From Flavobacteriaceae bacterium F08102 (GTDB taxonomy: Bacteria; Bacteroidota; Bacteroidia; Flavobacteriales; Flavobacteriaceae): 64,000 nt of DNA. The stretch lies in NCBI GenBank assembly GCA_023015935.1, contig JALKAY010000008.1:186001-250000 (forward strand), read 5' to 3'. The translations under genes were made by a program, and so were the position numbers. Positions 5,189 through 26,394 of the stretch are shown here, piece after piece. Numbering within the stretch: position 1 is the first letter of the stretch; each line of letters opens with the position of its first letter. The notes below the pieces were generated by a model. It ran no database searches and was not told where the DNA came from. It worked only from the letters and a program-made list of their open reading frames with translations.

Positions 5189-5256
5189 GTGGGAAGTCTT
5201 GTTTATTAAATGAAGATTACAAAAATACTGAATAAAATTCTGTTTTTACGAATTCA

Positions 5257-6606: not shown

Positions 6607-6609
6607 AAT

Positions 6610-7698: not shown

Positions 7699-7707
7699 TT
7701 TAAATTA

Positions 7708-8832: not shown

Positions 8833-8834
8833 AA

Positions 8835-10037
8835 TTAGGTATTTGAATTAAGTTTTTTCTGCTGACGCACAAAATCAAATTCTTTTGCATTCATCAATAT
8901 CATATAAGAAAACCAAGGAAAAAACAAGAACTGTCCAGCGGTTAAATTCCCTTCAAAAAGAGGTATAATAATTAACGGAATAATCAATAATGAATATGTT
9001 AAGGTTGTTTTCCAAAAAATTTTTAAAGGATGGAAAACCATAAATGACAAAAAAATGAAGAACACAATAATACCTGAGCCAAATAAAATTTCCCAATAGG
9101 AATTATGATAAGACCTTAATATACCTCCATTTAAATGTAATTCATCATAATTAAACATCCCTACACCTATTAACCAATATACTGGATTTCGTTCAAAACT
9201 TTTTAACATTGCTGCAGTTCCGATTAGTCGCCCTTCTGTTCCTGACTCAATTTGATTCTCATTTTTTTCCAATAAAAAGTCAATAGCCGAATCCTTTTGT
9301 AAAGCAACAAATAGAATTATTAGAACCACTGATAATATGATCAATAGTTTAGTATAATAACCAACAAATTGATCCTTTTTAATGAATAAAATAAACGCAA
9401 TAAAAACAGATAGTAATCCTGCTCTGTTTGCACTTATAATTAATAAATAAAAAACGAATGGTAAAAAGATATATATTACTAATTTGTAAAAAAATTTTAA
9501 GGGATAAAATCGAAGGACTGAAAATGCACATAAAATAAACATAGTACTCCCCCATCCATAGTGATTTGACACAAAATAATTCCCTTCTTGATATCCGTAG
9601 ATATTATAAGTTTCAATTAAACTTCCTCCTACTAGGAAAAAGGAAATAGGAACTATTGAATATACTAGTAAAATTGAACATGAAAGTGCAATCATTAAAT
9701 TAGCTGCTCCATAACGCAGTAAATAATTAATTGAATAAATTATATATAAAAGTGGATACACAAAAGTTAGCCCACGGTAAATAGACTTAAAAGGGTCTTC
9801 TGAAAGAAATGATAACACAAACACCGAAACTATAATAAAATAAATTGCCCCAATATTTTTTATAAATTGTGTTGAAATTGTGTTTTTATACAAAACATAA
9901 AGAAAAGAAAAAAACAACACTACACCTTTAAATATCGTCATTTCAGTGACTGCTTGACCTTGTGTAGTACCCATTGCATATCCAATCAACACTAACATCA
10001 TGTTGAAAGTCAAGACGCGAAATACATTATCGCGCAT
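8835..10037 (-). CDS. O-antigen polymerase/ligase-like membrane protein (Wzy type)
   Basis: About 400 residues with ten or more hydrophobic segments and a large periplasmic-type loop containing ENQIESGTEGRLIGTAAMLK and YHNSYWEILFGSG; the latter fits the YHN(x)Y/W pattern of Wzc_C/O-antigen-ligase-like polymerases. Two arginines lie in loops (SANRAGLLS and EGRLIG), as is usual for Wzy. The likely role is polymerisation of undecaprenyl-linked repeat units at the periplasmic face. The frame is open up to a TTG at 10067; the first ATG at 10037 (MRDNVFRVL) is chosen because it directly precedes the first membrane helix, and TTG starts are uncommon here. A 92-base gap before the gene holds a possible promoter. 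Confidence 0.82.
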   Translation of the reverse strand: MRDNVFRVLTFNMMLVLIGYAMGTTQGQAVTEMTIFKGVVLFFSFLYVLYKNTISTQFIKNIGAIYFIIVSVFVLSFLSEDPFKSIYRGLTFVYPLLYIIYSINYLLRYGAANLMIALSCSILLVYSIVPISFFLVGGSLIETYNIYGYQEGNYFVSNHYGWGSTMFILCAFSVLRFYPLKFFYKLVIYIFLPFVFYLLIISANRAGLLSVFIAFILFIKKDQFVGYYTKLLIILSVVLIILFVALQKDSAIDFLLEKNENQIESGTEGRLIGTAAMLKSFERNPVYWLIGVGMFNYDELHLNGGILRSYHNSYWEILFGSGIIVFFIFLSFMVFHPLKIFWKTTLTYSLLIIPLIIIPLFEGNLTAGQFLFFPWFSYMILMNAKEFDFVRQQKKLNSNT

Positions 10038-10159: not shown

Positions 10160-11287
10160 CTATTTTCCGAAATTACTTAAATATTCTATAATTAGTTTAA
10201 CTGCATTGCCATCTCCATAAGGATTATTTGATTTAGTCATTTGATTGTATAGTGTAGAATTATTAATAAGTTCTTGAACGCCATTAATAATATTTTCCTT
10301 GTTGGCACCGACTAACTTAACAGTTCCAGCTATAACTGCCTCAGGTCTTTCGGTTGTATCTCGCATCACCAGTACGGGTTTACCTAAACTGGGGGCTTCT
10401 TCTTGAACGCCTCCAGAATCGGTTAAAATTAAATAACAATGTTTCATGGCAATTACAAAGTCTTGGTATTCTAGTGGATCTATTAAATGAACATTTGATA
10501 GATTTCCTAATACCTGTTGAACGGGTTCTTGTACATTGGGATTTAAATGGACCGGATATACAAAATGCATGCTAGGATTCGCTTGCGCCAAATGCTGAAT
10601 AGCCTCACAGATCTGAATAAAACCATCGCCAAAGTTTTCTCTTCGATGGCCCGTAATCAACACATATTTCTCATCATTTTTGACCAACATATCCAAGGTT
10701 GTTGTCTGTATCTTTTCACTAAATTCTGTTAAATTTTTAGAAATATACAGCAAGGAATCTATTACTGTATTCCCTGTTTTTACAATCCTATCTGGCGAAA
10801 TCCCCTCATCAATAAGGTTTTGTACATTTAAATCGGTTGGGGCAAAGTGATAATTTACCAATTTACTCACCAATACACGATTGGCTTCTTCTGGAAAAGG
10901 AGATTGTAAATTCCCTGTACGTAAACCTGCTTCTACATGTCCAATTTCAATGCCTTCATAAAACGCAGCAAGTGCTGTTACAAAACAGGTACTGGTATCT
11001 CCATGTACCAATACTAAATCTGGTCGCCATTGTTGTTTAAATAAATCACGCATCCCTGTTAGTACTTTAACAGTGACATCGGTTAGGTCTTGACCGTGTG
11101 ACATCACATTTAGGTCAAAATCTGGGGATAATTGAAATAGATCAAGGACTTGATCAAGCATTTCACGGTGTTGCGCAGTTACACAAAGGCGATGTTCTAT
11201 GGTGGGTTCTTCAGACAATCGCTTCGCAAGGACTGCCATTTTAATAGCTTCAGGACGGGTACCAAATACTGTGAGAATTTTCTTCAA
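10160..11287 (-). CDS. wecB: UDP-N-acetylglucosamine 2-epimerase (non-hydrolysing)
   Basis: 375 residues, normal family length. The full WecB signature set is present: FGTRPEAIK (8-16), TAQHREMLDQ, HGDTST (95-100), GHVEAGLRT (116-124), PFPEEANR, TGHRRENFG, DSGGVQEEAP and RDTTERPEA. It interconverts UDP-GlcNAc and UDP-ManNAc; with the TviB/WbpO-like dehydrogenase at 26529 it could feed UDP-ManNAcA. The start must be the TTG at 11287, because an in-frame TAA lies three codons upstream and the family N-terminus MKKILTVFGTRPE begins exactly there. It is 6 bases downstream of the previous glycosyltransferase stop, so it is in the same transcript. It is clearly distinct from the WbpI-like paralogue at 839. 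Confidence 0.95.
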   Translation of the reverse strand: MKKILTVFGTRPEAIKMAVLAKRLSEEPTIEHRLCVTAQHREMLDQVLDLFQLSPDFDLNVMSHGQDLTDVTVKVLTGMRDLFKQQWRPDLVLVHGDTSTCFVTALAAFYEGIEIGHVEAGLRTGNLQSPFPEEANRVLVSKLVNYHFAPTDLNVQNLIDEGISPDRIVKTGNTVIDSLLYISKNLTEFSEKIQTTTLDMLVKNDEKYVLITGHRRENFGDGFIQICEAIQHLAQANPSMHFVYPVHLNPNVQEPVQQVLGNLSNVHLIDPLEYQDFVIAMKHCYLILTDSGGVQEEAPSLGKPVLVMRDTTERPEAVIAGTVKLVGANKENIINGVQELINNSTLYNQMTKSNNPYGDGNAVKLIIEYLSNFGK

Positions 11288-12904: not shown

Positions 12905-14980
12905 TCAAACGAGTAAATCGTTGTGATTTAGTATCAATTCAATTTTTTTAATGATAATCGTTATTTGATTCATCTGTTCTTCAATATTTCTAAAAAACAA
13001 ACTGACATCTCTATCTTTCCAGCTTTCTGAGATCACCCGAGCGCCTAAGCTTATGCGCAGCACAGCACTGGGCTCACCGGATGGATGAATGACCGAAACG
13101 GCTTGACCAATGTGGCATTTTTGTGCCGCTAATTTTTTTACTTCAATGGGGCTTTCCTCAAAATGAGTACTTAAATTCGCGTTCAACAATTCATATATCT
13201 TTTTCACTTGGGCTTGGCTTAGCACCTTGCCATTTTTACTGATAAAGAAAGGGAATATAGTTCGCGTGGTCTTTAAGCTAGATATTTCACCTTTGGGAAC
13301 ATTATTATAATCGTCAATAAATAATTCGTCTAAAAATTCAGACTCTTTTACTGACTTTCGTACAAAATCACAAAATAACTCAATGCCTAAATTTCGGTAT
13401 AAAATAGGCGTATCAAAATACCGGTGCATTTCAGAAATTGCCGCATTCCATCGCATTAAGGCGCCAAAATTTGTTCCATCCGCTAGGGTACGAATACAAT
13501 CCCAACTCACTGGCCAATCAGATTTATTAAAATACTCTGTCAAACCGATGGGCAACTCACATTTTTTACTGCGAATAAGTTTAGCTAGTTGGGTGGGAAT
13601 TAACAAGGCTCCTGAATAAGGAGGTCCGGTAAAAAATTTACTTCCTGTAATGGTTACGATAAAATTATGTTTTAGGTAACGCCCAATATCCTCTGCATCA
13701 AAACGAAATTGTGAACCGTCAATCACAATTTGTGCAGAAATATCTTTGAGGTCTTGTACTTTTTTAATGGCCGCACTGCTCGGTGCTCTATAGCCTAGTT
13801 TTGATTGGTCAATCACGTGTAAGACGATGTGCTTTCCCGCTTGTTTACATGCATCAACAATGGCTAAGACTTCATTGTCAATACGGTCTATTTTCTTCAA
13901 GACACCTGCCTTATCCCGAAACGCTACCGTTTGCACCTCAACCGGCCTAAACCCTCGAATAGGATCTCCTTTTTTTACAGGGTAATGTAAGGCTGTATTA
14001 TTTTCAAAGTGATATCCTTTTAAAGCCGTAGGCACGCCACTTCCTGTCTCATCTGACCCAACCACGATATGTACAATAGGTTTATCCGTTGCTATTTGGG
14101 TAAGGGCTGCTATTTGCAATGAGGAATCTGTACCCGATGGTGAAAAAATCACTTCACAGGGATCTTCAATTTTTAAGGTCTCAATTAAATGTTTTTTTAG
14201 GCTTAAGATAAAATTCTTTCCCGTTTTTTCCATCCCTTGTTTCACGCCATCGCGAATTAATTTTCTTCGCACTCTATCTGTGATATCGAAGGCATAATTT
14301 GAGATACTCGTAGCGGTTGAAGAGGCAAAGGTAAACGCCTGTGGTCTCGGAAATGGGGTACAACCGTATTTATTGAGGAGGGTTTTTTCGCTGAGTTGCA
14401 ATCTAAAGTCCCCTCCAGACATCAACAAAAATTCAGTAGGTTGTGCAAAACCTTCGACCAATTGAAGCATTGCGTCATTTGCGGGTATCTGCGGAATGGT
14501 AATTTTATGAAAACTGGCTAATTCTGCCTTAATTTTATCCGCTAAGGGGTACTGTACGGTTGATTGCCCTTTTGTCTGGTTTAGGAAATCTGCCAAACGT
14601 GCATCATCCTTTTGAAGTGCCATTTTATCCTCTATGGGTAAAAGCTGGTAAAATTTCATCAATACGTTCAGGGCTGCAACATCATAAATGTGTGCATATT
14701 TTTTATTTTTATCAAAGGCTTGAAACCAAATTTGCCATTCAATACCATACCGTAAATAAATTAATGCCAGTACGGGATTGGTCATATAATATTCGCCTAT
14801 GACCAGAAGTTTACCCGGTACAATTCGAAATGAATACGGAAATGTTTTAGATGCCCGAATGTTAATATCATCAATTTTCGGGATGGTACTTATTCTACTT
14901 AAGACCCGTATAAGCGCAGAAACGCCTTGATTACCTGGGAAATTTATTTCGTTGTATTTTTTAGATAAAATATCTTCCAT
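12905..14980 (-). CDS. Large PLP-dependent fold-type-I enzyme of unknown reaction
   Basis: 691 residues. Residues 1 to ~210 match nothing I recognise. From about 215 a fold-type-I PLP domain follows: phosphate-binding loop SPSGTDSSLQ (280-289), a pyridine-contacting aspartate in QIVIDGSQFR (D421) and the probable Schiff-base lysine in TITGSKFFTGPPYSGALL (K448). The order and spacing resemble class-V aminotransferase/desulfurase-like enzymes, not the DegT/PseC family used for sugar amination. The C-terminal 200 residues include a small-domain part (QAVSVIHPSGEPSAVLRIS). It sits inside the polysaccharide locus between the flippase and an acyltransferase (10-base gap), so a role in making an amino-containing substituent is plausible but unproven. 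No membrane segment or signal peptide is seen. Confidence 0.72.
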   Translation of the reverse strand: MEDILSKKYNEINFPGNQGVSALIRVLSRISTIPKIDDINIRASKTFPYSFRIVPGKLLVIGEYYMTNPVLALIYLRYGIEWQIWFQAFDKNKKYAHIYDVAALNVLMKFYQLLPIEDKMALQKDDARLADFLNQTKGQSTVQYPLADKIKAELASFHKITIPQIPANDAMLQLVEGFAQPTEFLLMSGGDFRLQLSEKTLLNKYGCTPFPRPQAFTFASSTATSISNYAFDITDRVRRKLIRDGVKQGMEKTGKNFILSLKKHLIETLKIEDPCEVIFSPSGTDSSLQIAALTQIATDKPIVHIVVGSDETGSGVPTALKGYHFENNTALHYPVKKGDPIRGFRPVEVQTVAFRDKAGVLKKIDRIDNEVLAIVDACKQAGKHIVLHVIDQSKLGYRAPSSAAIKKVQDLKDISAQIVIDGSQFRFDAEDIGRYLKHNFIVTITGSKFFTGPPYSGALLIPTQLAKLIRSKKCELPIGLTEYFNKSDWPVSWDCIRTLADGTNFGALMRWNAAISEMHRYFDTPILYRNLGIELFCDFVRKSVKESEFLDELFIDDYNNVPKGEISSLKTTRTIFPFFISKNGKVLSQAQVKKIYELLNANLSTHFEESPIEVKKLAAQKCHIGQAVSVIHPSGEPSAVLRISLGARVISESWKDRDVSLFFRNIEEQMNQITIIIKKIELILNHNDLLV

Positions 14981-15028: not shown

Positions 15029-16492
15029 TTATTCTTTTGCACTGTAAATTTTATAAGTTGTCATAATTGGATACAAAGATAATACGAATACGGTGCCAAT
15101 TGCCACACTAATTATATTGGGAACAAACCTTGGGAAAATCAAAAACTTTACCCCAATGGCAACCAGTATCAGAAACAACACATAAAACATGTTTTTGTTA
15201 AAAAAATTTATTTTAACAGGATAATCCATACGCAAATAAATTAAATAACTCACAGCGGCCATAAAAAAAGCATTTAACGGAATAATAAATAGCAAACCGT
15301 TTACATTAAAATATTTTATGAACACATAGGTACAAAGCGCCGTTAATAATTGACTTATTGACCAAAAATTATACAGCCGTTTGGCCTTACCTTGAGAAAC
15401 TACCATTTTTCGATACAGTCCGCCTAAACTACTAATAAGTATTCCTACACAATTAAAAAGCAAAAAGACATAAGCTAAATCGACATCTTTCGCTACGAAT
15501 TTTTTATTCTCCCAAATCAACCTTATGATCTCATCCCCCATTAAAATGCTTCCTATAATAATTACCCCATTTATATTCACCAAGCTCATAAAATTCTTGG
15601 TAAACACTTTAGAAACACTTTTTACATTTTGCACCAAGATAGAATATTTTGTAAAAAATATGGTGGTAAAGGGTTGAATAAATAAGCCTTTAATTTTACT
15701 TGCCAAGTTTTGCACGTATTTAAAAATGGCATAGACCCCTTCCGGTAAGAAAGAAATACTAGCAGTAAGCACGATGTTATAAATTTGGGTTGCTCCAACA
15801 TAGATTAACGTACTCCGCATGGTTTTAAAGAAAGATATATGGTCAAATTCAGGCAAACTCCACACCCATTTAAATCGAAAACCATTTTTATACAATTGCC
15901 AAGCATAAAACACAAATTCAATGAACCTCCCTAAAACAAACGAAAGTACCAATGCCCACAGTTGAATATAGGGATATAAGATAACCAAAACCAAAATGTT
16001 GACAAGGGTATTGGTCAAACTCAAAAATTCGGCTCTTCCAAAGCGCTCTTCGGCATTTAAAACAGTAACAAAAAAAGAATTCATCAATACTAAAAAAAGG
16101 ACTGGGATAAACATCCTAAAAATTAAGCTTGTCATTTCTTTATCGGCACTCGTAAATCCCGGTACCATTAAATCAACCAAGGAAGGGGCGAATAAAAAGA
16201 CTATTGAAAGTAAAAACATGCCAAACAAAAACATACGAGTTAGTACTACGTTGAGCCCTAAATATCCGTATCCTTTTTTGATGACATTTAACTTGTGAAA
16301 AATGGGCAAGAACACCTCTGCTAATTGACCACTTTGGGTCAATGAAGAAACCAAATACACCAAACTTTGTGCTGCAAAATAAATCTCAATGGTCCGTGAG
16401 GCCCCAAAATAATGCACCTGTAAAATGGAGTAGAGCAAACCCAATACAGCCGTGAGTAATTTCAATGAAAAAAGCCTCAATAATATTTTCAT
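15029..16492 (-). CDS. Polysaccharide flippase of the MurJ/Wzx (MVF) type
   Basis: 487 residues with 12-14 hydrophobic segments. The N-terminus LLYSILQVHYFGASRTIEIYFAA and the EVFLPIFHKL element match MurJ-like members of the MOP exporter superfamily. In a capsule locus this protein most likely moves the undecaprenyl-linked repeat unit across the inner membrane. It starts inside the end of the pyruvyltransferase-family gene (ATGA overlap, 4 bases). A classical Wzx is not otherwise present, which supports this role. Confidence 0.88.
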   Translation of the reverse strand: MKILLRLFSLKLLTAVLGLLYSILQVHYFGASRTIEIYFAAQSLVYLVSSLTQSGQLAEVFLPIFHKLNVIKKGYGYLGLNVVLTRMFLFGMFLLSIVFLFAPSLVDLMVPGFTSADKEMTSLIFRMFIPVLFLVLMNSFFVTVLNAEERFGRAEFLSLTNTLVNILVLVILYPYIQLWALVLSFVLGRFIEFVFYAWQLYKNGFRFKWVWSLPEFDHISFFKTMRSTLIYVGATQIYNIVLTASISFLPEGVYAIFKYVQNLASKIKGLFIQPFTTIFFTKYSILVQNVKSVSKVFTKNFMSLVNINGVIIIGSILMGDEIIRLIWENKKFVAKDVDLAYVFLLFNCVGILISSLGGLYRKMVVSQGKAKRLYNFWSISQLLTALCTYVFIKYFNVNGLLFIIPLNAFFMAAVSYLIYLRMDYPVKINFFNKNMFYVLFLILVAIGVKFLIFPRFVPNIISVAIGTVFVLSLYPIMTTYKIYSAKE

Positions 16493-17586
16493 GTGTTAAG
16501 CCAATTTACCATTAACGAATCTAATTTTCGTAATGATTCTTGTTCTTGCTTTAATTTTGATGTTGTCATTTTCAAACCTTCAATTTCATTAAAAGCTTGA
16601 ATATATTCATTCAAATTAGCTTCTGGTTTAATTACAACAGGGTTTTCATAAAACAATTCACTTGCATACCTTAATTTCTGATGTAATTCTATAGCAATAA
16701 ACGGTGTACCTACAAGGCCTGAAACATATAGGCTATGCATCCTACTACTAATCGTTAATTTTGCTTGACTGAAAAAATTAAAAAAATCCAAAATTGAACA
16801 TTCATTCGGATTCCAAATTGTTAATTTAAAATCTGCCTTATTTATTTCTGCATAAATATTTTTGTTTTTTTCATGTTGTAAAAATATCCAGTGCGTTTTC
16901 ATTGCAGTATTTTCTTCAATGTATTCTGCAAGATTAAGCAATTGCCCTAAATGCTTTTCATAAACTTTTTTATGTCCATAAGATCTAGGACAAATTACAA
17001 CTTCATCAATTCTCTTTCTACTTTTATTTTGTTCCAAAAAATTCCCATATTCAATACTTAGGTCATTACTGAGGTGCATATTTTTTTTAATACCCATCGC
17101 ATCAGCCTCATCCCAAGACTTTTGATCTCTAACTCCTAAGATTTTAAAGTTTTTTAAAATTTGCCCATGTAAATTTCTGGTTCTATCATTAAAGTATGGT
17201 CCTATTCCAATTCCTATACCTCCAAATTCAGTACCAATAAGTCTGGGTAAATTAAACCTAATCAGATTTGCTAAATATCTTTTGAAATACGTTGCTTTTT
17301 TCATATTAGTTCGGTAATCAAAAAAGACGCCACCTCCAATATAATAAACCTTGTCAAATTGTGCATAAAACAACCATGGTAGTTTTTGCTTGGTTTTTAT
17401 AATCTTAATCTTAGGTAAATAATTATATAAATAATCAGGATCTTCCTTTGAGAATGGAAACGAAACATAAACATCCACATTGTTGAGTTGATTAACTCTC
17501 TTGACTGCTAATTCTAGGAGTAAATCATCTCCAAAATTGCGATGCCCTATGTACCCTTGTAGTAAAATTTTCTTTTTAGATCCCAT
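16489..17586 (-). CDS. Polysaccharide pyruvyl transferase family protein (PF04230 type)
   Basis: 365 residues. The N-terminal KKILLQGYIGHRNFGDDLLLE and the central YYIGGGVFFDYR are the standard landmarks; the C-terminal SSRMHSLYVSGLVGTPFIAIEL matches the family's SxRxH motif. Known members (CsaB, WcaK, Pvg1) add a ketal pyruvate from PEP to a sugar of the repeat unit. Here it could alternatively be one of the family members that act as glycosyltransferases. The TAATG overlap with the upstream gene and the ATGA overlap with the flippase show tight coupling. Confidence 0.85.
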   Translation of the reverse strand: MGSKKKILLQGYIGHRNFGDDLLLELAVKRVNQLNNVDVYVSFPFSKEDPDYLYNYLPKIKIIKTKQKLPWLFYAQFDKVYYIGGGVFFDYRTNMKKATYFKRYLANLIRFNLPRLIGTEFGGIGIGIGPYFNDRTRNLHGQILKNFKILGVRDQKSWDEADAMGIKKNMHLSNDLSIEYGNFLEQNKSRKRIDEVVICPRSYGHKKVYEKHLGQLLNLAEYIEENTAMKTHWIFLQHEKNKNIYAEINKADFKLTIWNPNECSILDFFNFFSQAKLTISSRMHSLYVSGLVGTPFIAIELHQKLRYASELFYENPVVIKPEANLNEYIQAFNEIEGLKMTTSKLKQEQESLRKLDSLMVNWLNT

Positions 17587-19196
17587 TACACAAAAAATAG
17601 TGGTTTTTTAAATTCAATTGATTCTATAATCTTTGCGAAAACCGGTTCCTTTAGGTATTCTTCAATTGTTCCTTTTCTAAAACCACGAATATCAGTGGTA
17701 TTCTCTTCATAAAACATATTAAACGGTATCTGATACCGTATAAATAATAGGTAGGCATACTTTAATGCTTCCTGTTTGTTCTTATCCAAGTTGTAATTTT
17801 CAACCTTAAAATCGGCTAATACCTCAAAATACTCCGCTTTTGAATTAATATCCACCGTAAACCCTTTGTTACGGTAATGCGTTCTAGAGACCACCAAACA
17901 CGGTTTATTCACCAAAGGCAGTTCCATGCCAGCAGTCGTTGTATGTACAATACCAAGATCTGTTATATCATAAATACTCCAACTATTTACCTTTGCATCG
18001 GGTTTTATAATTTTCACATTTTGATTTGGAGTCATATTATCCATGATAATGTCGTAAAATGGCATTTTTGTGCCAATGACTACTTCAGCAGGATGAATTT
18101 TTACAATCAATTGTTTTTCTGGATGGTCATTAAACCAAGCAATGGTTTCAAGCACCCATTCTACTGGGTTTTTAAAAGCAATCTCTCGTTGTGCGCTCGC
18201 CGCATCCCACAAAACATTCGTAAATAGGGTGTAAATGGGTTTGTTGGGGTCTAAACCTAGGTTGGCAATGGTTTCATTTTGCGAGGTTTCTTTACCAAAA
18301 TTATATACATAAACATCATTTTTGTGTGAGATTCTGGAATCAAGATAATCGTTTAAGACATGCATTTCCTTTGGGGTTAACTCTTTGTCTTTAACGCGCT
18401 CCCACTCTTCAGATACGTCCCAAGAATCACCTGTTTTATTCCAATTAAAAACTTGTGAATGCCGCATTTTCCCACGACCATGTACCAAAGTAGGTATGTT
18501 ATTTTGAGTTAGCACTTCAAATGGGGGGCCCCAAGTACTATAAATACCATGACTCATAATCACCTTATCTACCTTTAAATCTACCAGTTTTCTACCTATT
18601 GCATCTGTAAGTGCTATTGCCTTTTTGAAAAGCTCCTTTTTTTCTTTAAAATTTGGTAAATCATTAGATAATACACCAACCTTATATTGTTTTAATAGGG
18701 AAGCTTCTAAAATTGCATCATACTTTTCATTGTATTCATACGATTTGGTTGAATCGATAAAATCAGAAACTTTAATAAAATCTAACTTGAGGTTTGTCAA
18801 AAATTTAGAAGCATATAAGACATTGTATTTTTCTTGATACTCCCAATTTTCTTCATTCCCAATTTTTTTCATTTCGTGCACAGGCAATGTATTGTCATCA
18901 AAAATAATGGTTACATTATGTCCCTTTTTCTTTAGTGCCAAAGCCAAAAGTCCTTCGATATATAAATGAAACGAACTTCCAGGAAGCATTAATAACACAA
19001 AAATATTTTGTGGTTTACTTGATTTCTCAGGTTTCATTTGACCTAGTTTTTCCGCTTGAACTAACGGAATACTCTTGTTAAAAACTGAATATCCTAGTTT
19101 TTTATACGAAAACCCAACCGCATGTAATAATTTTACAAGGATGGGAAATAACGATAGTTTTATTTTATCTTTAATTTTCAATGGTTCCTGTTTCAT
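17586..19196 (-). CDS. Capsule-type polysaccharide biosynthesis protein, GT-B-like
   Basis: 536 residues, soluble. N-terminal half has FVLLMLPGSSFHLYIEGLL and NVTIIFDDNTLP; the C-terminal half has YTLFTNVLWDAA, LIVKIHPAEVV and HTTTAGMELPLVNKPCLVVS. HPAE and T-x-G-x-E-x-PL are donor-site features of capsule-synthesis transferases related to the Kdo/nonulosonate transferase group. It directly follows PseG (ATGA overlap), so it is a good candidate for the transferase that adds the nonulosonate to the chain. That assignment is an inference from position and fold. Confidence 0.75.
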   Translation of the reverse strand: MKQEPLKIKDKIKLSLFPILVKLLHAVGFSYKKLGYSVFNKSIPLVQAEKLGQMKPEKSSKPQNIFVLLMLPGSSFHLYIEGLLALALKKKGHNVTIIFDDNTLPVHEMKKIGNEENWEYQEKYNVLYASKFLTNLKLDFIKVSDFIDSTKSYEYNEKYDAILEASLLKQYKVGVLSNDLPNFKEKKELFKKAIALTDAIGRKLVDLKVDKVIMSHGIYSTWGPPFEVLTQNNIPTLVHGRGKMRHSQVFNWNKTGDSWDVSEEWERVKDKELTPKEMHVLNDYLDSRISHKNDVYVYNFGKETSQNETIANLGLDPNKPIYTLFTNVLWDAASAQREIAFKNPVEWVLETIAWFNDHPEKQLIVKIHPAEVVIGTKMPFYDIIMDNMTPNQNVKIIKPDAKVNSWSIYDITDLGIVHTTTAGMELPLVNKPCLVVSRTHYRNKGFTVDINSKAEYFEVLADFKVENYNLDKNKQEALKYAYLLFIRYQIPFNMFYEENTTDIRGFRKGTIEEYLKEPVFAKIIESIEFKKPLFFV

Positions 19197-20173
19197 AATG
19201 TAACGGTATGTTGTATTCTACTTTTAGATTTCCCGTCTAAATTACCTTGTTGATTCTTTATCAAACTTCGCAATAATGACGTATTTTCATATTGATTAAT
19301 CACCGTCTCTATCATTTTTTCAACGGTAGCTTGCCCGTCAGTTTGCCCAAGCCCTAAGGCCATTTCCAATTGGGTTACTCCCCGATAATTTAAGCGTTGA
19401 TTCTCTACAAACCAACACGTAAATATGGGTTTTCTTAGTGCAATTGCTTCAAAACTTAAAACGCTAGCAGGAATCAATACGATTTTAGATGTAGTCATAT
19501 AGTGAATCATTTCGGATTCATTTAAGCTATATAAAGGCCGTAGGTTTTTACTGTTGTTTTCTCGAACTTGAGCGCTTGACTTTACTACCCAATAAATGGG
19601 GGCAGAAAAATTCGCTTCGAGTAAGCCATTCGCGAATTTTTCACCCAAGTCAAAGGTATCGGCACCACCAAAACATATAAAAACACCTTCTCCTGTTGGC
19701 TCCTCCATAGGTTGCTGCGCAATTTCTAAAAATTTTGGCCGCAGTAATGCGTAGTCAAGTCCCAAACAAAATACCGTACTTGGATCATACGGCGCAAACA
19801 TTTCTTTGGTCAACCCCGGTGTATGGTTTAATACGATATCTACATTTTGTACCGAATACGGTATATCGTTGGTTTCAATGAGTTTTGCCACTAAGGCCCG
19901 TAAGGTTTTTTTCCAAGCCTCCGTAAACGCATAGCCATCAAGCCAAACAATATCGTTTTTAGCTACCCATGGTAACATAGCTGCATCATGCTCAATGCCA
20001 ATAACTTCAAATTCTTCTACAATCCCTTTTACGTAGCCCACATTTTCTTTTAAACACACAAAAGTTATTTCAAAAAGATCCGAAAGCATCCAAGCTGCCG
20101 CCATACAACGAGAAACATGTCCGCGCCCTATGGTGGTATTTCCATCTGTTCTAAAATATAACTTTTGTTGCAT
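19193..20173 (-). CDS. pseG: PseG-like nucleotide-sugar hydrolase
   Basis: 326 residues. The N-terminal YFRTDGNTTIGRGHVSRCM is the PseG signature (RxD-x5-G-x-GHxxR with the essential His), followed by a MurG-like donor domain with FICFGGADTFDLG, IVLIPASVLSFEAIAL and KPIFTCW. PseG cleaves UDP from UDP-2,4-diacetamido-trideoxy-altrose in the pseudaminate pathway; here the true substrate may lack the 4-amino group because PseC and PseH are not in the locus. It is 3 bases downstream of the NTF2-like gene and overlaps the next gene by 4 bases. Confidence 0.86.
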   Translation of the reverse strand: MQQKLYFRTDGNTTIGRGHVSRCMAAAWMLSDLFEITFVCLKENVGYVKGIVEEFEVIGIEHDAAMLPWVAKNDIVWLDGYAFTEAWKKTLRALVAKLIETNDIPYSVQNVDIVLNHTPGLTKEMFAPYDPSTVFCLGLDYALLRPKFLEIAQQPMEEPTGEGVFICFGGADTFDLGEKFANGLLEANFSAPIYWVVKSSAQVRENNSKNLRPLYSLNESEMIHYMTTSKIVLIPASVLSFEAIALRKPIFTCWFVENQRLNYRGVTQLEMALGLGQTDGQATVEKMIETVINQYENTSLLRSLIKNQQGNLDGKSKSRIQHTVTL

Positions 20174-20176
20174 CGT

Positions 20177-20656
20177 TTAAGTTCGTGGAAGGTAGCCTGT
20201 AAAGCTTTGTATTTTCCATTGATTATTAACTTTTCTCAACACAAAGAGGCTTAACCAATCGAGGTTGAGATTCGGTTTATTTTTCACCTCCAAAGTCCCA
20301 TCAAACACTTTATGAACGAAAGCTGTTTCACCTAGAATATCAATTCGCGACAAATAAACATTTTCAAACAGAAAATTCAACGGATCTTCGGCAAATTCTT
20401 CTTTGTTAAATTGCGTACTCTGATGTAACCAATCCTTTTTATACGCCGCTAAATTTGGATAAGTCAAACTCCATGTAGCTTTATCAGACGACTTCTTGCC
20501 ATCAATTCCAAAAAACCCTTCTTCCATAAAATCATCTTCAATCATGGACCAATCTTCTGAACAGAATGCAACAAAATCGCGATACATGATCAATTCCCAA
20601 ATCAAACGCTCCTCTTCATTATACGTTTTAGGTGCCACGTGTTTTTTTTTCTTCAT
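20177..20656 (-). CDS. NTF2/SnoaL-like small protein embedded in the nonulosonate operon
   Basis: 159 residues. A helical N-terminal half (ERLIWELIMYRDFVAFCSEDWSMIEDDF) is followed by beta-rich sequence ending in FVLRKVNNQWKIQSFTGYLP, the layout of the cone-shaped NTF2/SnoaL fold: long helices, then a curved sheet with a closing W-K-I strand. No motif fixes a function. It starts within the neuB stop (ATGA overlap) and ends 3 bases before pseG, so it is translationally coupled to both, which argues for a role in the same pathway, for example as an isomerase or a subunit. Similar folds include ketosteroid-isomerase-like enzymes and binding proteins. The fold call is from pattern only. Confidence 0.6.
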   Translation of the reverse strand: MKKKKHVAPKTYNEEERLIWELIMYRDFVAFCSEDWSMIEDDFMEEGFFGIDGKKSSDKATWSLTYPNLAAYKKDWLHQSTQFNKEEFAEDPLNFLFENVYLSRIDILGETAFVHKVFDGTLEVKNKPNLNLDWLSLFVLRKVNNQWKIQSFTGYLPRT

Positions 20657-21831
20657 AATCCACGTAATTGATTCAACCGAATATAATCGCCTTGCTGAAC
20701 ATCCTCCCCAAGGGTTTTACCAATCACTTTATCCATTTCATAGGGGGGCAATGCATCTACCGGACAAGGTCGAAGGACTTGCACATCCTCTTTCCGAATT
20801 ACTTCTCCCGCCTTCATCGTTCTGGTAGTCCGTATGGCGCGCCGTTGAACAATAACGGTATTTTTTTCATTGGCAGCAAGCTGTTTTATTCCATCCCCAA
20901 TAATCAAAGGTAAAAACTGTCCATCTGTTGCCATATTTTGAATCTTTTCACATCGGGTCTCAAAAGAGTCTGTGGCTTGAATTTCTTTTTTTAAAGCTGC
21001 TGTATTTTGTACCATTGAACGCCATTCATCGGGCATCATTGAAAACGAATGATCTTGTCCCGTTTTGGTATTGTCTAAGGTGAAATGTTTTTCCACTGCA
21101 GCACAGCCATACAATCCTACAGCACCTAACACCGTTAAATCGCCATGGGTATGGTCTGACAAGCCTAAAGGTACTCCAGGCCACAACGATGCGTACTGTT
21201 CTAGCACTTTTAAATTAATGTTAGAAAAACGCTCTTTTGTCAAGGCAATATCTTCTCCTTTCTTTGCTGTATAATTGGTATTACACTGCATTAGAATAAC
21301 TTGTGTATTTACAGCTAATGCAGCCTCCATGGCAAGTTGTACTTCGTGTAAGGTAGACGCTCCTGTGGCAATAATAACTGGTTTATGAAAACTCGCCATC
21401 ACCTCAATCTCTTCGTGCCAAGTAATATCTCCAGACCCCAATTTAAATGCTGATACGTATGGTGCAACGGCTTTGGTTATTTCAATAGAGTAAGGTGACG
21501 TAAAATAATCTATTCCGAGTGATGTTGCTAACTCTTTTAATTCTAAGGTCCATTCAAAGGGAATAGATGCCGCCTTATACGATTCATAAACAGAGGTTTC
21601 CCAGGTACTTTGGTGCGTTTTTACATTTTTCAGATGTTTAAATCCATAATCTGAAACAATGGTATCTGCATTAAAATTTTGCATCTTAATGGCATCTACG
21701 CCCGACTCGGCACCTGCATAAATTAATTCCTTTGCATGTTCTAAATCCCCATTGTGATTGGAGGCAATATCTGCTATAAAATAAACAGGTTCATCTTTAT
21801 CAATAATTCTGTTGTTAATTTTAACCTTCAT
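20653..21831 (-). CDS. NeuB/PseI-type nonulosonate synthase with SAF domain
   Basis: 392 residues. The TIM-barrel half has DIASNHNGDLEHAKELI, DAIKMQNF, FTSPYSIE, KLGSGDITW, IATGAST, GLSDHTHGD, EKHFTLDN and a GQDHSFSM loop: the PEP-, metal- and sugar-binding motifs of NeuB-family synthases. The C-terminal ~65 residues (VQRRAIRTTRTMKAGEVI to IRLNQLRGL) are the antifreeze-like SAF domain. It condenses PEP with a free 2-acetamido sugar to give a nine-carbon 2-keto acid. It is about 40 residues longer than a typical 345-350-residue NeuB because of an insertion between barrel and SAF domain. It overlaps the upstream reductase by 11 bases. Confidence 0.9.
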   Translation of the reverse strand: MKVKINNRIIDKDEPVYFIADIASNHNGDLEHAKELIYAGAESGVDAIKMQNFNADTIVSDYGFKHLKNVKTHQSTWETSVYESYKAASIPFEWTLELKELATSLGIDYFTSPYSIEITKAVAPYVSAFKLGSGDITWHEEIEVMASFHKPVIIATGASTLHEVQLAMEAALAVNTQVILMQCNTNYTAKKGEDIALTKERFSNINLKVLEQYASLWPGVPLGLSDHTHGDLTVLGAVGLYGCAAVEKHFTLDNTKTGQDHSFSMMPDEWRSMVQNTAALKKEIQATDSFETRCEKIQNMATDGQFLPLIIGDGIKQLAANEKNTVIVQRRAIRTTRTMKAGEVIRKEDVQVLRPCPVDALPPYEMDKVIGKTLGEDVQQGDYIRLNQLRGL

Positions 21832-22693
21832 ATATGTACTTTTTTAACCCTTCAATGCGTGTTAACCCCGTAAGGGTTTCTTTTTCATATACCAAAAATC
21901 GGTCTCCATAAAGTTGTAGCATTCGCTCAGGAATAACGGCTAAATTAACTTCACGTTTACCTCCTGCCTGAATGCGGTTTTTGTCATAGCCAAACCGTTC
22001 TGCTTGGGCTTGTAAAAAATGATATTCTTCTGAGTGATCTTGACTTCCAAAATGAAGGGTTCCTGTAATCCGATCGCGAATAATTAACTCAACACCTTCA
22101 ATTAACAAGCTTGCCAGTATTCTATTTTGCACCACGCCTCGATCTACAATTATGCTTTCACCTTTTGCCAATTTTTCTAACAAAGCTTGATTTCGCGTAA
22201 TTTTATGAGGAACCCATCCTTGTACCGATGCAAAACGTAAAATCGCATAGGCTACCGTACTTTCTTTTAACATGGCTTCACAACGCGCTTTAAACTGACC
22301 ATACGGAGTCACACTCTTCGCTTCGAGAGACTCGATAAGTTTTTCACCATTATAACCATCTAAGGCTAAGGCTGATGAGGCATAGAGATAATGGCAAGTA
22401 TTTTGTTGGGCGTAGGCAATAATCGCTGCGTGGATTTGTGCTCCAATTTCGTCTTCTCCACGTAAAAAATTGACTACACTGTCTGGCTGTACTTCCTCAA
22501 GGCACTGTCTATAATCTGCTACTTGATAAGGCAAACGCACGACCCTACAGTTGGCAGGAAATTCAATCTGCGCCTTGTATACCGTTCCAACGACCCGATA
22601 ATCACTAGGTACCAACTGCTGAACTAAGGAATACCCTAGCCACGAAGAGGCTCCTAAAATCAATACCGTTTTTCGTTGAGAATCCTTTTGCAT
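21821..22693 (-). CDS. RmlD-like NAD(P)-dependent sugar reductase/epimerase
   Basis: 290 residues, extended SDR. The Rossmann motif is LILGASSWLGYSLV (GxxxxxG), the active-site pair YGQFK (YxxxK) lies after a serine-rich ASSALALDG, and the C-terminal substrate domain (VVQNRILASLLIEGV, GTLHFGSQDHSEEYHF) follows RmlD/WbvR-like 4-ketoreductases. It is coupled to PseB (TAATG overlap) and to NeuB (11-base overlap). This placement suggests that it reduces the 4-keto product of PseB, instead of the usual PseC amination. That would give a 2-acetamido-2,6-dideoxyhexose with a 4-hydroxyl. The alternative is a UDP-L-RhaNAc/QuiNAc-type branch acting with one of the 2-epimerases. Confidence 0.75.
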   Translation of the reverse strand: MQKDSQRKTVLILGASSWLGYSLVQQLVPSDYRVVGTVYKAQIEFPANCRVVRLPYQVADYRQCLEEVQPDSVVNFLRGEDEIGAQIHAAIIAYAQQNTCHYLYASSALALDGYNGEKLIESLEAKSVTPYGQFKARCEAMLKESTVAYAILRFASVQGWVPHKITRNQALLEKLAKGESIIVDRGVVQNRILASLLIEGVELIIRDRITGTLHFGSQDHSEEYHFLQAQAERFGYDKNRIQAGGKREVNLAVIPERMLQLYGDRFLVYEKETLTGLTRIEGLKKYIYEG

Positions 22694-23712
22694 TAAACCG
22701 TGAAATTAGGATCTACATGTTCTTTTATAAGGGCTCTTATCTCTTCTACCCCTACCCATTCATCGTTGGTACCCGAATTATACACAAATCCAGGGGGAAC
22801 CATTTTAGCTTTGTTTTTATCTATATAATCTTGAATTGTATAACGATAGGTTTGTGGTAAAATAATATAATAATCACCTACATCTACCGTATTATATGAA
22901 TCTGAAGAGGTAATCATTTCTTCGTGAATTTTTTCACCTGGACGAATCCCTAAAATGGGTTTTTCACAATCAGGTCCAATCGCTTCTGCAAGGACCATTA
23001 TTTTATAGGATGGAATTTTAGGAATAAATATCTCTCCTCCCCATGCGTGTTCTAAGGCGTGTAATACCATTTCAACACTATCGTCTAACGAGATATTAAA
23101 ACGAGTCATTTCTGGATCAGTAATCGGTAAAACGCCACTTTCTCTCTTATTCAAGAAAAAAGGAATCACTGAACCTCTAGACCCCATTACATTTCCATAG
23201 CGCACCACAGAAAATTTTAAATCTCTTGAACCGCTCATGTTGTTAGCTGCAACAAATAACTTATCAGAACACAATTTTGTAGCTCCGTATAAATTTAAAG
23301 GTGCAGCTGCTTTATCGGTAGAGAGTGCTACCACACGTTTAACCCCCGTATCGAGTGCTGCATCAATCACATTTTCGGCACCATTGATGTTGGTTTTAAT
23401 ACATTCCATCGGATTGTATTCGGCGGCAGGAACTTGCTTTAAAGCGGCAGCGTGAATAATATAATCAACCCCTTCACAAGCCCTCTTCATCCGTTCTTTA
23501 TCACGTACATCTCCAATAAAATAACGCATGGCCTTATATTTTTCAGGACTAAAAACCTGTGCCATTTCAAATTGTTTTAATTCATCGCGCGAATACACAA
23601 TAATTCTACGTACCTCAGGATATCGCTTTAACACAATTTCAATAAACTTCTTTCCAAAGGATCCTGTTCCCCCAGTAATTAATATGGATTTATGATTTAA
23701 ATCTAAACTCAT
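22693..23712 (-). CDS. pseB: PseB-type UDP-N-acetylglucosamine 4,6-dehydratase (inverting)
   Basis: 339 residues. TGGTGSFGKKF (Rossmann loop), HAAALKQVPAAEYNP, STDKAAAPLNLYGATK with the catalytic Asp-Lys and Tyr-x3-Lys, and RYGNVMGSRGSVIP are all in place and match PseB/FlaA1 enzymes. It converts UDP-GlcNAc to the 4-keto-6-deoxy-L-arabino product by C5 inversion, the first step of pseudaminate-type and L-FucNAc-type pathways. It lies one base after the SpsF-like gene and overlaps the reductase start (TAATG), so it is the second gene of a coupled operon. Confidence 0.92.
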   Translation of the reverse strand: MSLDLNHKSILITGGTGSFGKKFIEIVLKRYPEVRRIIVYSRDELKQFEMAQVFSPEKYKAMRYFIGDVRDKERMKRACEGVDYIIHAAALKQVPAAEYNPMECIKTNINGAENVIDAALDTGVKRVVALSTDKAAAPLNLYGATKLCSDKLFVAANNMSGSRDLKFSVVRYGNVMGSRGSVIPFFLNKRESGVLPITDPEMTRFNISLDDSVEMVLHALEHAWGGEIFIPKIPSYKIMVLAEAIGPDCEKPILGIRPGEKIHEEMITSSDSYNTVDVGDYYIILPQTYRYTIQDYIDKNKAKMVPPGFVYNSGTNDEWVGVEEIRALIKEHVDPNFTV

Positions 23713-23713
23713 T

Positions 23714-24406
23714 TCAGCTGTTTTTTCTTTCTAAATAACTATATAAGGCTGCTTGATTCAAAGGCGTCTTTGTCGCTGTAAACACTTGCAGCAATTGTTC
23801 TATTCTCGTTCTATCTTCTACACTATCAACCGTTAATTTACGATCTAGATGTTGTTGAAGACCAAAGGTAGATGGGGTAACTAAACACGTCTTAAAAAGA
23901 CTTGGATTTTGAATAAAATACGGGGTAACATGCTCTTTATCATAGGGGGTTAAATCCTGTAGATCGACCTTTCTAAAAGCTCCGACACGGATAAATTCCG
24001 TTGCCAAATGACTCAATCCTTCAATGCCCGTATAATCATTTTGATTTTCCTTATGCAACGCCAACAATTCACGACAAACAGTAGCTTGATAAAATAGGTT
24101 ATCTGCCGTAACACGTACAATAACATCACGGTCATTTAAGTTGCCACATCCGCTTAAAAACCGACTAAATACATCATCACGATCACCGCGAACTACGGTA
24201 CAATTCAAGTTATTAGATGCATAGACCTCTATGGGATCATCTTCTTCTAGAGCACTGGTAGCAATGTAAATTTCATCGCAAATAGCTAGGTTACGAACTG
24301 CATCTACAACGCGTTTTAATAGCGGTACACCATTAATTGGACTTAAGGTCTTACCCCGTAAACGTGAGCTTCCCATCCTAGCCTGAATTATGGCTCTAAC
24401 TATCAT
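23714..24406 (-). CDS. SpsF/PseF-type CMP-sugar cytidylyltransferase
   Basis: 230 residues. IIQARMGSSRLRGKTL is the nucleotide-binding start of the SpsF branch of cytidylyltransferases; VRGDRDDVFSRFL and RVTADNLF give the metal/CTP-site acidic residues, and DRKLTVDSVEDRTRI is the usual C-terminal landmark. It probably activates the locus-specific nonulosonate as the CMP-sugar. It is the first gene of the coupled operon that runs down to the flippase. A perfect -7 promoter element lies 25 bases upstream. The ATG at 24406 is the natural start. Confidence 0.85.
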   Translation of the reverse strand: MIVRAIIQARMGSSRLRGKTLSPINGVPLLKRVVDAVRNLAICDEIYIATSALEEDDPIEVYASNNLNCTVVRGDRDDVFSRFLSGCGNLNDRDVIVRVTADNLFYQATVCRELLALHKENQNDYTGIEGLSHLATEFIRVGAFRKVDLQDLTPYDKEHVTPYFIQNPSLFKTCLVTPSTFGLQQHLDRKLTVDSVEDRTRIEQLLQVFTATKTPLNQAALYSYLERKNS

Positions 24407-24438: not shown

Positions 24439-24508
24439 AGGTTTTATTCCAAAATCTGAGCGGAAGTTATAAACAAAAGAAGGAAGTATTTAACGAAGAT
24501 AAGCCTCC

Positions 24509-24766
24509 AGGTCTCAGTCTACAGCCTACAGTCTACAGTCTACAGTCTTCAGCCTACAGTCTACAGTCCACAGTCTACAGTCTACAGTTCAGTCTTCAGT
24601 TGCAGTCGGGAGTCTTCAGTCTTCAGTTTTAAGTATCGTATACATTTCATGGTCTATTATTGAAAATAACATTAATATGATTACCGTCTACTTCATTCGA
24701 ATCCCGCTGACAACTGCCGACTGTTAACTATATACTATTCTGACTGCCGACTGTAGACTGTGGACT
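24509..24766. repeat. CAGTCTACAGTC-type array with inverted counterpart
   Basis: From about 24509 to 24630 the sequence is an irregular array of 7-8-base units (CAGTCTA, CAGTCTTC, CAGCCTA, CAGTCCA). About 110 bases downstream, 24741-24766 carries the opposite orientation. The 18-mer AGTCCACAGTCTACAGTC (24565-24582) is perfectly complementary to 24749-24766, so a large stem-loop is possible. The inverted arm ends 5 bases before the stop of the epimerase gene. The rest of the 24439-24771 gap shows nothing else. Confidence 0.88.
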
Positions 24767-24771
24767 AATCA

Positions 24772-25836
24772 CTATGTGTTCATCTCCAAATACTTATCCA
24801 CAAACGCCTGAATTCCTTCTTCAATAGGTGTTTCCGGTTTAAAGTCAATATAGTCAAACAAACTTTGAACATTTGCGTAGGTAGAAGGAACGTCACCAGG
24901 CTGCATCGGTTTTAATACCACTTTTCCTTTTTTTCCAACAGCTTTTTCTACCGCCCGTACAAAATCCATCAGCGCAACCGGGCTGTTATTCCCAATATTA
25001 AACAATTGATACGGTGCAGAACTTAACGATGGGGTTGGTTTCTTCGCATTGAATTTCGGATTGTTTGGTGCTGGCGCCAAGGGAATTAATCGTCTGATAC
25101 TTTCTACAATATCCGCTACATAGGTAAAATCTCGACTCATATCTCCATAATTGTACACGTCAAATTCTCTATCCTCTACAATGGCTTTGGTAAATAAATA
25201 CAAGGCCATATCAGGTCTCCCCATCGGTCCATATACGGTAAAGAAACGCAATCCGGTACACGGAATTTTAAATAAATGAGCATACGAATGTGCCATCATT
25301 TCATTCGCTTTTTTACTGGCGGCATACATGGCTAACGGATGGTCTGTATGGCTATCAACTGAAAAAGGAATTTCTTCACTTAAACCATAAACTGAACTCG
25401 AAGATGCAAAAACCAAATGCTCAACAGGGTAGGTTCTACAAGCTTCTAAGACATTTAAAAACCCCGTAATATTATTGTCAACATACGATTGAGGATTCTC
25501 TAAAGAATATCGAACGCCCGCTTGAGCAGCTAGGTTCACCACATAGGAAAAGTGTTCTTTTTTAAATAAATCAAGGAGATTTTCTTTGTCTTGTAAATCG
25601 AGTTTTACAAAGGTAATACTTCCCTTCAAAGGCGTATTGTATTCAATGGCCGAAATATCAATCCCCAAATCTTCTAAACGAGCTAATTTTAAATTAGGAT
25701 CATAATAATCGTTAATATTATCAATCCCAACAACATCATAGCTATTTTGGGTTAATAACTTGGACAAGTGATAGCCAATAAATCCGGCAGCTCCGGTAAC
25801 GAGGATTTTTTTATTTTTATTGGTAGGGTTATTCAT
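24772..25836 (-). CDS. NAD-dependent UDP-uronate 4-epimerase (UDP-GlcA epimerase type)
   Basis: 354 residues, extended SDR. TGAAGFIGYHL (GxxGxxG), NDYYDPNLK, SSSSVYG and YAASK (YxxxK) form the cofactor and active site; VYGPMGRPDMAL is the element that distinguishes UDP-glucuronate 4-epimerases (CapI/LpsL type) from GalE and WbpP. The likely product is UDP-galacturonate or an N-acetylated counterpart. With the dehydrogenase at 26529 it could form a uronic acid branch. It is flanked on both sides by the CAGTC repeat arrays, so it may be a separately acquired module. Confidence 0.88.
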   Translation of the reverse strand: MNNPTNKNKKILVTGAAGFIGYHLSKLLTQNSYDVVGIDNINDYYDPNLKLARLEDLGIDISAIEYNTPLKGSITFVKLDLQDKENLLDLFKKEHFSYVVNLAAQAGVRYSLENPQSYVDNNITGFLNVLEACRTYPVEHLVFASSSSVYGLSEEIPFSVDSHTDHPLAMYAASKKANEMMAHSYAHLFKIPCTGLRFFTVYGPMGRPDMALYLFTKAIVEDREFDVYNYGDMSRDFTYVADIVESIRRLIPLAPAPNNPKFNAKKPTPSLSSAPYQLFNIGNNSPVALMDFVRAVEKAVGKKGKVVLKPMQPGDVPSTYANVQSLFDYIDFKPETPIEEGIQAFVDKYLEMNT

Positions 25837-25886: not shown

Positions 25887-25992
25887 CAGTCTACAGTTTG
25901 CAGTCTACAGTCTTCAGTCTTCAGTCTACAGTCTACAGTCAACAGTCAGCAGTCTTCAGTCTACAGTCTGCAGTCAACAGTCTTCAGTCTGC
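25887..25992. repeat. CAGTCTACAGTCTTCAGTC-type array, arm 1 of the four-helix-bundle bracket
   Basis: About 106 bases of irregular 7-8-base units: CAGTCTA, CAGTCTT, CAGTCAA and CAGTCTG. It lies between the four-helix-bundle gene and the epimerase start. The same units appear in opposite orientation at 26480-26526, on the other side of the four-helix-bundle gene. Confidence 0.92.
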
Positions 25993-26034: not shown

Positions 26035-26394
26035 TTATTCAAATTTTTTCGGATTCATCATCATATAATTAATGAGTTTTCCGACTTCAATATTCTTCCT
26101 TTCTAATTTCTTCTTTTTATCTTTAGTGATATAATTGCATGAACTTGCAAACTCAAGCCATCCCAAAGTTTCTGCATTTTCCGAATCGGCATCTGACAAC
26201 TTACTTATAAAATGTTTCGGATAAATCCTTTTTCGATACGACTCAGCCATATTAATACAAACTGACCGCGATGATCTCCTGATTTGATCTGTCAAAGAAT
26301 ACCGTTCTTCCTTTGGAAAAGACTTCGTAATTTCAAAAATTTCCATTGCCAAGTCAAAACCTTTTCTATAAGCTAATAACTTTCTAAATCCCAT
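26035..26394 (-). CDS. Four-helix-bundle protein of the S23/23S rRNA intervening-sequence family
   Basis: 119 residues, nearly all helical. The family pattern is clear: LLAYRKGFDLAMEIFEITKS, FPKEERYSLTDQIRRSSRS, VCINMAESYRKR, SDADSENAETLGWLEFA and a C-terminal helix. The family was first found inside 23S rRNA intervening sequences and later as free-standing genes in many genomes; its function is not established (a five-subunit barrel with possible nucleic-acid binding is known structurally). Here it interrupts the polysaccharide operon between the dehydrogenase and the epimerase and is bracketed by inverted CAGTC-type repeats. It probably has nothing to do with polysaccharide synthesis. Confidence 0.9.
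   Translation of the reverse strand: MGFRKLLAYRKGFDLAMEIFEITKSFPKEERYSLTDQIRRSSRSVCINMAESYRKRIYPKHFISKLSDADSENAETLGWLEFASSCNYITKDKKKKLERKNIEVGKLINYMMMNPKKFE

Follow-up and report, generated by a model that had tools for sequence, protein, structure and literature searches.

A PseB–RmlD-like reductase–NeuB operon in Flavobacteriaceae bacterium F08102 as a candidate route to 7-hydroxy trideoxy nonulosonic acids

The window analyzed here, a 64,000-nucleotide stretch of Flavobacteriaceae bacterium F08102 (assembly GCA_023015935.1, contig JALKAY010000008.1, positions 186,001–250,000; all coordinates below are window-based), contains an operon with genes of nonulosonic acid biosynthesis. According to the list of open reading frames (ORFs), its genes are all located on the minus strand and are transcribed in the order SpsF-like cytidylyltransferase, PseB, RmlD-like reductase, NeuB-family synthase, NTF2-like protein and PseG-like hydrolase (Table 1). 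The core genes are separated by one base (SpsF-like/PseB) or three bases (NTF2-like/PseG-like), or they overlap by 1 (PseB/RmlD-like), 11 (RmlD-like/NeuB) and 4 bases (NeuB/NTF2-like). The tight packing of six genes that an earlier reading of the letters alone (the sequence-only reading) had described was thus borne out by the ORF list. The run extends past position 19193, where that reading had let it end: downstream of the PseG-like gene follow overlapping genes for a 536-amino-acid (aa) protein (overlap 4), a pyruvyl transferase-like protein (overlap 1) and a MurJ-like protein (overlap 4).

Table 1 Genes of the operon and its downstream extension, in order of transcription
Feature	Position	Strand	Basis
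SpsF-like cytidylyltransferase	23714..24406	-	Pfam CTP_transf_3; counterpart at same place in L017–L020
PseB, UDP-GlcNAc 4,6-dehydratase, C5-inverting type	22693..23712	-	TIGR03589, inverting motif, 75–89% identity in L017–L020
RmlD-like SDR reductase, proposed 4-ketoreductase of the PseB product	21821..22693	-	Pfam RmlD_sub_bind, invariant YxxxK
NeuB-family nonulosonate synthase with SAF domain, own clade	20653..21831	-	Pfam NeuB and SAF, tree
NTF2-fold small protein, putative accessory	20177..20656	-	AlphaFold2 model and Foldseek; in L016–L019, not L020
PseG-like UDP-sugar hydrolase	19193..20173	-	TIGR03590 below cut-off; 3hbm match
GT-B glycosyltransferase-like protein, 536 aa, candidate CMP-nonulosonate transferase	17586..19196	-	Follows PseG in 5/5 relatives; model
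Polysaccharide pyruvyl transferase-like protein	16489..17586	-	Overlaps 536-aa gene
MurJ-like flippase	15029..16492	-	Overlaps pyruvyl transferase-like gene

Judged from its sequence, the identity of PseB is secure. The protein reached 528.5 bits against TIGR03589 (cut-off 407.75), scored 259.8 bits against the FnlA family (cut-off 730) and carries an STDK...LYGATK stretch that fits the motif [ST]DKxnYx3K, listed for C5-inverting dehydratases in Table 1 of PMC8987622. In that source the motif is non-exclusive, as it is shared by CDP-glucose dehydratase and Pen, while the PglF/WbpM entry shows Met in place of Tyr. The SpsF-like protein matched Pfam CTP_transf_3 with 100.5 bits (cut-off 22.6), and every NCBIfam match was far below its cut-off. 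The synthase, the sole NeuB match in its genome (3,322,108 bases, 99.48% complete), scored 185.7 bits against Pfam NeuB (cut-off 22.1) and 33.2 bits against SAF. The reductase, a member of the short-chain dehydrogenases/reductases (SDRs), exceeded the cut-off of Pfam RmlD_sub_bind (42.9 versus 27 bits) and is not an RmlD equivalog (NCBIfam rmlD, 34.9 versus 224.05 bits). Residues Y131xxxK135 and S106-S107 were invariant in all six aligned reductases, and no match to NF047837 was found at E 0.001. A PDB profile search with the reductases returned RmlD (E 4.9e-6) and an epimerase (E 5.4e-6) and did not settle the substrate.

A single scan of a genome collection, based on an alignment of two reductases and two short peptide patterns and hence confined to close relatives, yielded five further loci (L016–L020) in two Flavobacteriaceae metagenome-assembled genomes (MAGs), two Mucilaginibacter genomes and one Saprospiraceae MAG (L020); L018 is the record behind Mucilaginibacter MD40 (G261), the source of the second query sequence. 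The relative order reductase–NeuB–(NTF2)–PseG–536-aa protein was kept in 5/5 relatives. SpsF and PseB lay directly upstream in four of the loci (L017–L020), and the L016 contig starts inside the end of PseB. The counterparts were 48–55% (reductase, L016–L020) and 44–54% (SpsF-like protein, L017–L020) identical to the proteins of the window. With the same order seen again in loci from three families, the gene arrangement appears to be more than chance. The sequence-only reading had put a ketoreductase in the place of PseC and PseH; the position held, with the gene lying between PseB and NeuB in each of the five relatives, and reduction of the PseB product is still a prediction. The operon has a sparse, patchy distribution. 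At E 1e-20, the reductase was detected in 3 of 395 genomes of the phylum (its own, G261 and G234, the last being 30% identical and in a different context), and at E 1e-40 in 2 of 379 genomes of the Mucilaginibacter family, both from one genus (G261 and G869, the latter counted on its reductase match). The window NeuB was found at E 1e-70 in 3 of 397 genomes of its family, its own included, and in neither of the two same-genus genomes listed.

With respect to PseB, the PseG-like hydrolase, a NeuB-family synthase, a CMP transferase and UDP-linked intermediates, the operon resembles the CMP-pseudaminic acid pathway (PseB, PseC, PseH, PseG, PseI, PseF). It differs in that PseC and PseH are absent at cut-off, that an RmlD-like reductase occupies their place and that an SpsF-like protein stands for PseF. 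Neither PseC nor PseH lies within the operon. Curated cut-offs (PseC, 423.5 bits; PseH, 93.1 bits) were then applied to six operon genomes and 14 control genomes. PseC passed in 0/6 operon genomes and in 2/14 controls, PseH in 0/6 and 1/14. The best PseC scores were 233.7 bits in the genome of F08102, 211 and 231.7 bits in those of L016 and L017, 25.1 bits in both Mucilaginibacter and 354.2 bits in the Saprospiraceae genome (11.2 Mb), and the best PseH scores ranged from 23.3 to 54.9 bits. The clearest evidence comes from the two Mucilaginibacter genomes, in which the operon is complete and no PseC match exceeds 25.1 bits; G261 is 99% complete, while MAGs may miss genes. The absence of both genes noted by the sequence-only reading thus extends, at these cut-offs, beyond the operon to all six genomes, and the finding that this reading had named as a refutation, PseC and PseH genes elsewhere alongside the operon, did not turn up.

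We propose the following route. PseB would convert UDP-GlcNAc into UDP-2-acetamido-2,6-dideoxy-4-hexulose with inversion at C5. As the operon holds no aminotransferase, the reductase would most naturally act directly after PseB and turn the 4-keto group into a hydroxyl, replacing both PseC amination and PseH acetylation. The simplest product would be UDP-2-acetamido-2,6-dideoxy-L-altrose or its C4 epimer, the L-ido form. PseG would remove UDP and free the 6-deoxy-HexNAc, which the NeuB-family enzyme would condense with phosphoenolpyruvate to a 3,5,9-trideoxy nonulosonate bearing a 7-hydroxyl group. The SpsF-like enzyme would form the CMP derivative for transfer by the downstream GT-B-like protein, the NTF2-fold protein being a putative accessory. 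In summary, the operon probably serves to synthesize and activate, for a surface polysaccharide, a 3,5,9-trideoxy nonulosonic acid that has one N-acyl group and a 7-hydroxyl group. What was observed are the scored identities, the conserved gene order and the absence of PseC and PseH at the cut-offs; each reaction assigned to F08102, and its stereochemistry, is inferred.

In the UDP-L-FucNAc route (FnlA/FnlB/FnlC or CapE/CapF/CapG), a reductase acts on UDP-4-keto-6-deoxy-L-HexNAc, and the proposed type of reaction thus has a precedent. The operon differs from this route, since its PseB is not FnlA, its reductase has no NF047837 match, and NeuB and PseG follow. It also resembles the legionaminate pathway of Bacillus subtilis (SpsM, C, D, G, E, F), which is likewise UDP-linked and comprises SpsG, the NeuB-like SpsE and SpsF, but there the aminotransferase and acetyltransferase genes spsC and spsD are required, according to PMC7439481, whereas the operon has no counterpart of either. 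As to the product, Fischer projections indicate that the L-altro sugar would be extended by NeuB to the L-glycero-L-manno form, or, from the other C4 face, to the L-glycero-L-gluco form, which PMC13014188 gives as the tentative configuration of fusaminic acid. The O-antigen of Fusobacterium nucleatum ATCC 25586 is described as containing L-6dAltNAc together with this acid, a 3,5,9-trideoxy nonulosonate, the latter in its 5-acetimidoylamino form (PMC13014188, PMC7371886); for trideoxy nonulosonates, PMC7371886 (2020) mentions a single reported case. The acid predicted for F08102 would presumably carry a 5-acetyl group where that of F. nucleatum has 5-acetimidoyl. The presence of both sugars in one O-antigen renders the proposed chemistry plausible and shows that the sugar class is known: L-6dAltNAc corresponds to the simplest predicted hexose intermediate of the operon, and the predicted product shares the 3,5,9-trideoxy skeleton, the single nitrogen and the 7-hydroxyl group with fusaminic acid, to whose class it would belong. 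The "possible new 9-deoxy sugar" of the sequence-only reading is therefore not new as a class, since these sources already describe one. That reading had also known of no established pathway with this composition. In the open-licence literature, which leaves most subscription journals outside, we found no report of PseB combined with a reductase, PseG and NeuB, or of fusaminate genes, so that the gene set is apparently undescribed.

Several observations weigh against the proposed pathway. The PseG-like protein scored 131.9 bits against TIGR03590, just below the cut-off of 153.55 bits; of two orthologues scored, that of L020 passed (163.4 bits) and that of L017 failed (141.5 bits). A UDP-sugar hydrolase of solved structure, 3hbm, was matched at E 1.8e-8, and the IGxGH motifs of the two proteins aligned. 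Furthermore, amination might take place in trans. An aminotransferase encoded elsewhere could, together with an acetyltransferase, complete a pseudaminate or legionaminate route, the reductase serving, for example, in a late modification. Among the 12 PF01041 matches in the genome of F08102, three are full-length DegT aminotransferases (300–373 bits; L002, L003 and L004), which would make amination in trans possible in this strain. Their PseC scores of 220–235 bits are below the cut-off, and one is LegC-like (364.5 versus 420 bits). A GNAT protein reached 51.8 bits against PseH, the Saprospiraceae genome holds the PseC-like match mentioned above, which is likewise under the cut-off, and a pyridoxal phosphate (PLP) enzyme of another class might act instead. 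We nevertheless regard amination in trans as unlikely, because none of the six genomes reached the PseC cut-off, both Mucilaginibacter keep the whole operon with at most 25.1 bits for PseC, and the DegT genes are found on contigs C11 and C33, away from the operon on C50.

A further point against the pathway in its plainest form comes from the synthase. NeuB scored below both NCBIfam cut-offs with about equal values (NeuB_NnaB, 208.0 versus 399.65 bits; PseI, 206.3 versus 340.25 bits). In a midpoint-rooted tree of 19 synthases (the window NeuB, five relatives, four outer relatives, five PseI-annotated and four Neu-type or unassigned rows), the window NeuB, the five relatives and the outer relatives L024, L026, L029 and L030 formed one clade (100/100) apart from the PseI-annotated and the Neu-type or unassigned rows. 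Section 7 of PMC7371886 describes a position sensing substrate C2 at which Phe marks Pse synthases and Gly marks Neu/Leg synthases. In our own alignment, Gly followed by Asp (residues 134-135 of the window NeuB) occupied this position in 10/10 clade members and Phe in 5/5 PseI-annotated rows; among the other four rows, three had Gly and L034 had Tyr. Either the surroundings of substrate C2 therefore differ from those in pseudaminate, or the rule is not transferable to the clade. If it carries over, Gly would not fit a plain L-altro substrate. The residue at this position makes a simple 7-hydroxy counterpart of pseudaminate less likely. With a PseI score below cut-off, a place outside the PseI clade and no Phe, the protein does not group with PseI-type synthases; nor does a NeuAc or legionaminate assignment fit, as the NeuB_NnaB score is below cut-off and no NeuC was found among the window proteins, to which the NeuC search was confined. 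Because NeuB forms its own clade without the Phe marker of PseI, any stereochemical assignment of the product is provisional; the sequence-only reading had given none.

The outer relatives suggested yet another possibility, namely that the reductase acts on the nonulosonate itself, in a keto or epimerization step after NeuB. Such a role has been proposed for SDRs in some routes to epi-legionaminate and acinetaminate. Three of the four outer relatives have an RmlD-like gene immediately upstream of NeuB, with differing partners and different upstream chemistry: the L024 cluster (G229, 3857–9414) combines NeuB with SpsF-AKR, SpsF, a DegT protein and the RmlD-like protein; the L030 cluster (G678, 4591–10001) with AKR, SpsF, a class III aminotransferase, GNAT and the RmlD-like protein; and L029 (G617, 5536–9733) has PseB, PseF (297.2 versus 205.7 bits), the RmlD-like gene, NeuB and a GNAT gene (below the PseH cut-off) in a row. 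In L026, PseB and an epimerase-family gene, located farther upstream of NeuB, take the place of the RmlD-like gene. No PseB was present in the ORF lists of the examined stretches of L024 and L030. In G617, G678 and G229, neither PseG nor PseC exceeded its cut-off (G617 bests: PseC 241.4, PseG 22.7 bits), and neither G229 nor G678, the latter only 67% complete, had a PseG match in the genome. The outer clusters thus do not follow the proposed route step by step. The comparison of gene neighborhoods across the NeuB clade, which the sequence-only reading had put forward as a check, accordingly gave the same order in five close loci and different partners in the outer ones. The L024 and L030 clusters may represent unassigned pathways of a nonulosonate-like kind. 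L029 appears to be another incomplete-looking nonulosonate set with a reductase, and this G617 cluster counts against the pathway in so far as reductases may serve a different purpose within this NeuB clade. We consider an action after NeuB improbable, as no other operon gene is evident for the 4-keto group of the PseB product, and as the outer RmlD proteins, related to the window reductase at profile level (hhalign probability 96.5%, 17% identity), need not act alike. A route through the C5 epimer of the PseB product, which PseB forms in vitro more slowly than the C5-inverted 4-hexulose (PMC7910423), would suit the Gly at the C2 marker, as in the Neu-type rows, and the two TIGR00236 epimerases in the window (839–1915 and 10160–11287), but is equally doubtful, since PseB scores as inverting type and these two Epimerase_2 proteins, which score as WecB type and below the NeuC cut-off, are unmatched in the examined stretches of the five relatives and hence not part of the conserved core.

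For the last steps of the proposed reduction pathway, we inspected the 536-aa protein, whose gene is separated from PseG by one extra gene in L019 and L020. Its structural model was of moderate confidence (predicted local distance difference test score, pLDDT, 73.1). UDP-GlcNAc 2-epimerases and many GT-B enzymes occupied the top Foldseek ranks with low template modeling (TM) scores. Among the best 50 rows, KpsC Kdo transferases had the highest TM scores on target length (0.40–0.50 versus at most 0.37 for the others); they were not best by E-value, and their TM scores were only 0.26–0.32 on query length. The Pfam Capsule_synth score of 15.2 bits was below the cut-off of 20. KpsC Kdo transferases use a CMP-ulosonate donor. 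The modeled fold suggests that the 536-aa protein is perhaps a nonulosonate transferase, an assignment that we regard as evenly poised. The NTF2-like protein (159 aa) matched no family at E 0.001, and its label rests on the predicted fold: the AlphaFold2 model (pLDDT 88.3) found 3blz, an NTF2-like protein, as best Foldseek match (E 2.9e-5, TM 0.57 on query length). Four of the five relatives have the gene between NeuB and PseG; the Saprospiraceae locus lacks a match, suggesting that the gene is not essential to the core. Relatives with up to 47.5% identity were found on 239 of 72,556 plasmid records, mostly from Rhizobium and Sinorhizobium, whereas the window reductase had no match among the plasmid records. 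In the one plasmid region viewed, no nonulosonate genes are present and the neighbors of the NTF2-like gene are RidA, M81 peptidase and D-TA-type PLP genes, and in G171 the protein is fused to a domain that looks RidA-like by eye. These neighbors and the fusion suggest at most a small-molecule NTF2 enzyme or binder.

Around the operon extends a polysaccharide locus that also encodes glycosyltransferases, a Wzy_C protein and the two WecB-type epimerases; export-type genes, read by eye from the ORF list, lie upstream. The product of a 691-aa gene within the polysaccharide gene run (12905–14980) had given the impression, by eye, of a PLP-fold protein, which Pfam, NCBIfam and PDB searches did not support; it had no match in the examined stretches of the five relatives. 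Shortly before the start of the operon, an SDR gene (24772–25836) is flanked by two arrays of 7-base units (GTCTACA / CAGTCTA) at 24502–24627 (about 17 copies) and 25887–25990 (about 15 copies). The gene at 26035–26394, also within the polysaccharide locus, matches PF05635 with 105.5 bits and encodes a 23S rRNA intervening sequence protein.

Nonulosonates are predicted from genomes via Neu, Leg or Pse gene sets, and a set in which one reduction replaces amination and acetylation could be miscalled as pseudaminate. The operon represents a candidate short five-enzyme route to trideoxy nonulosonates; with its gene order recurring in distantly related bacteria, it is a candidate for the genes behind these rare nine-carbon sugars. 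More tentatively, operons of this type might be the genetic basis of fusaminic-class acids, through a NeuB clade separate from both Neu/Leg and Pse synthases, which would take 2-acetamido-2,6-dideoxy-L-hexoses and set an unusual C4/C5 configuration; reduction instead of amination would then constitute a fourth main branch of nonulosonate biosynthesis.

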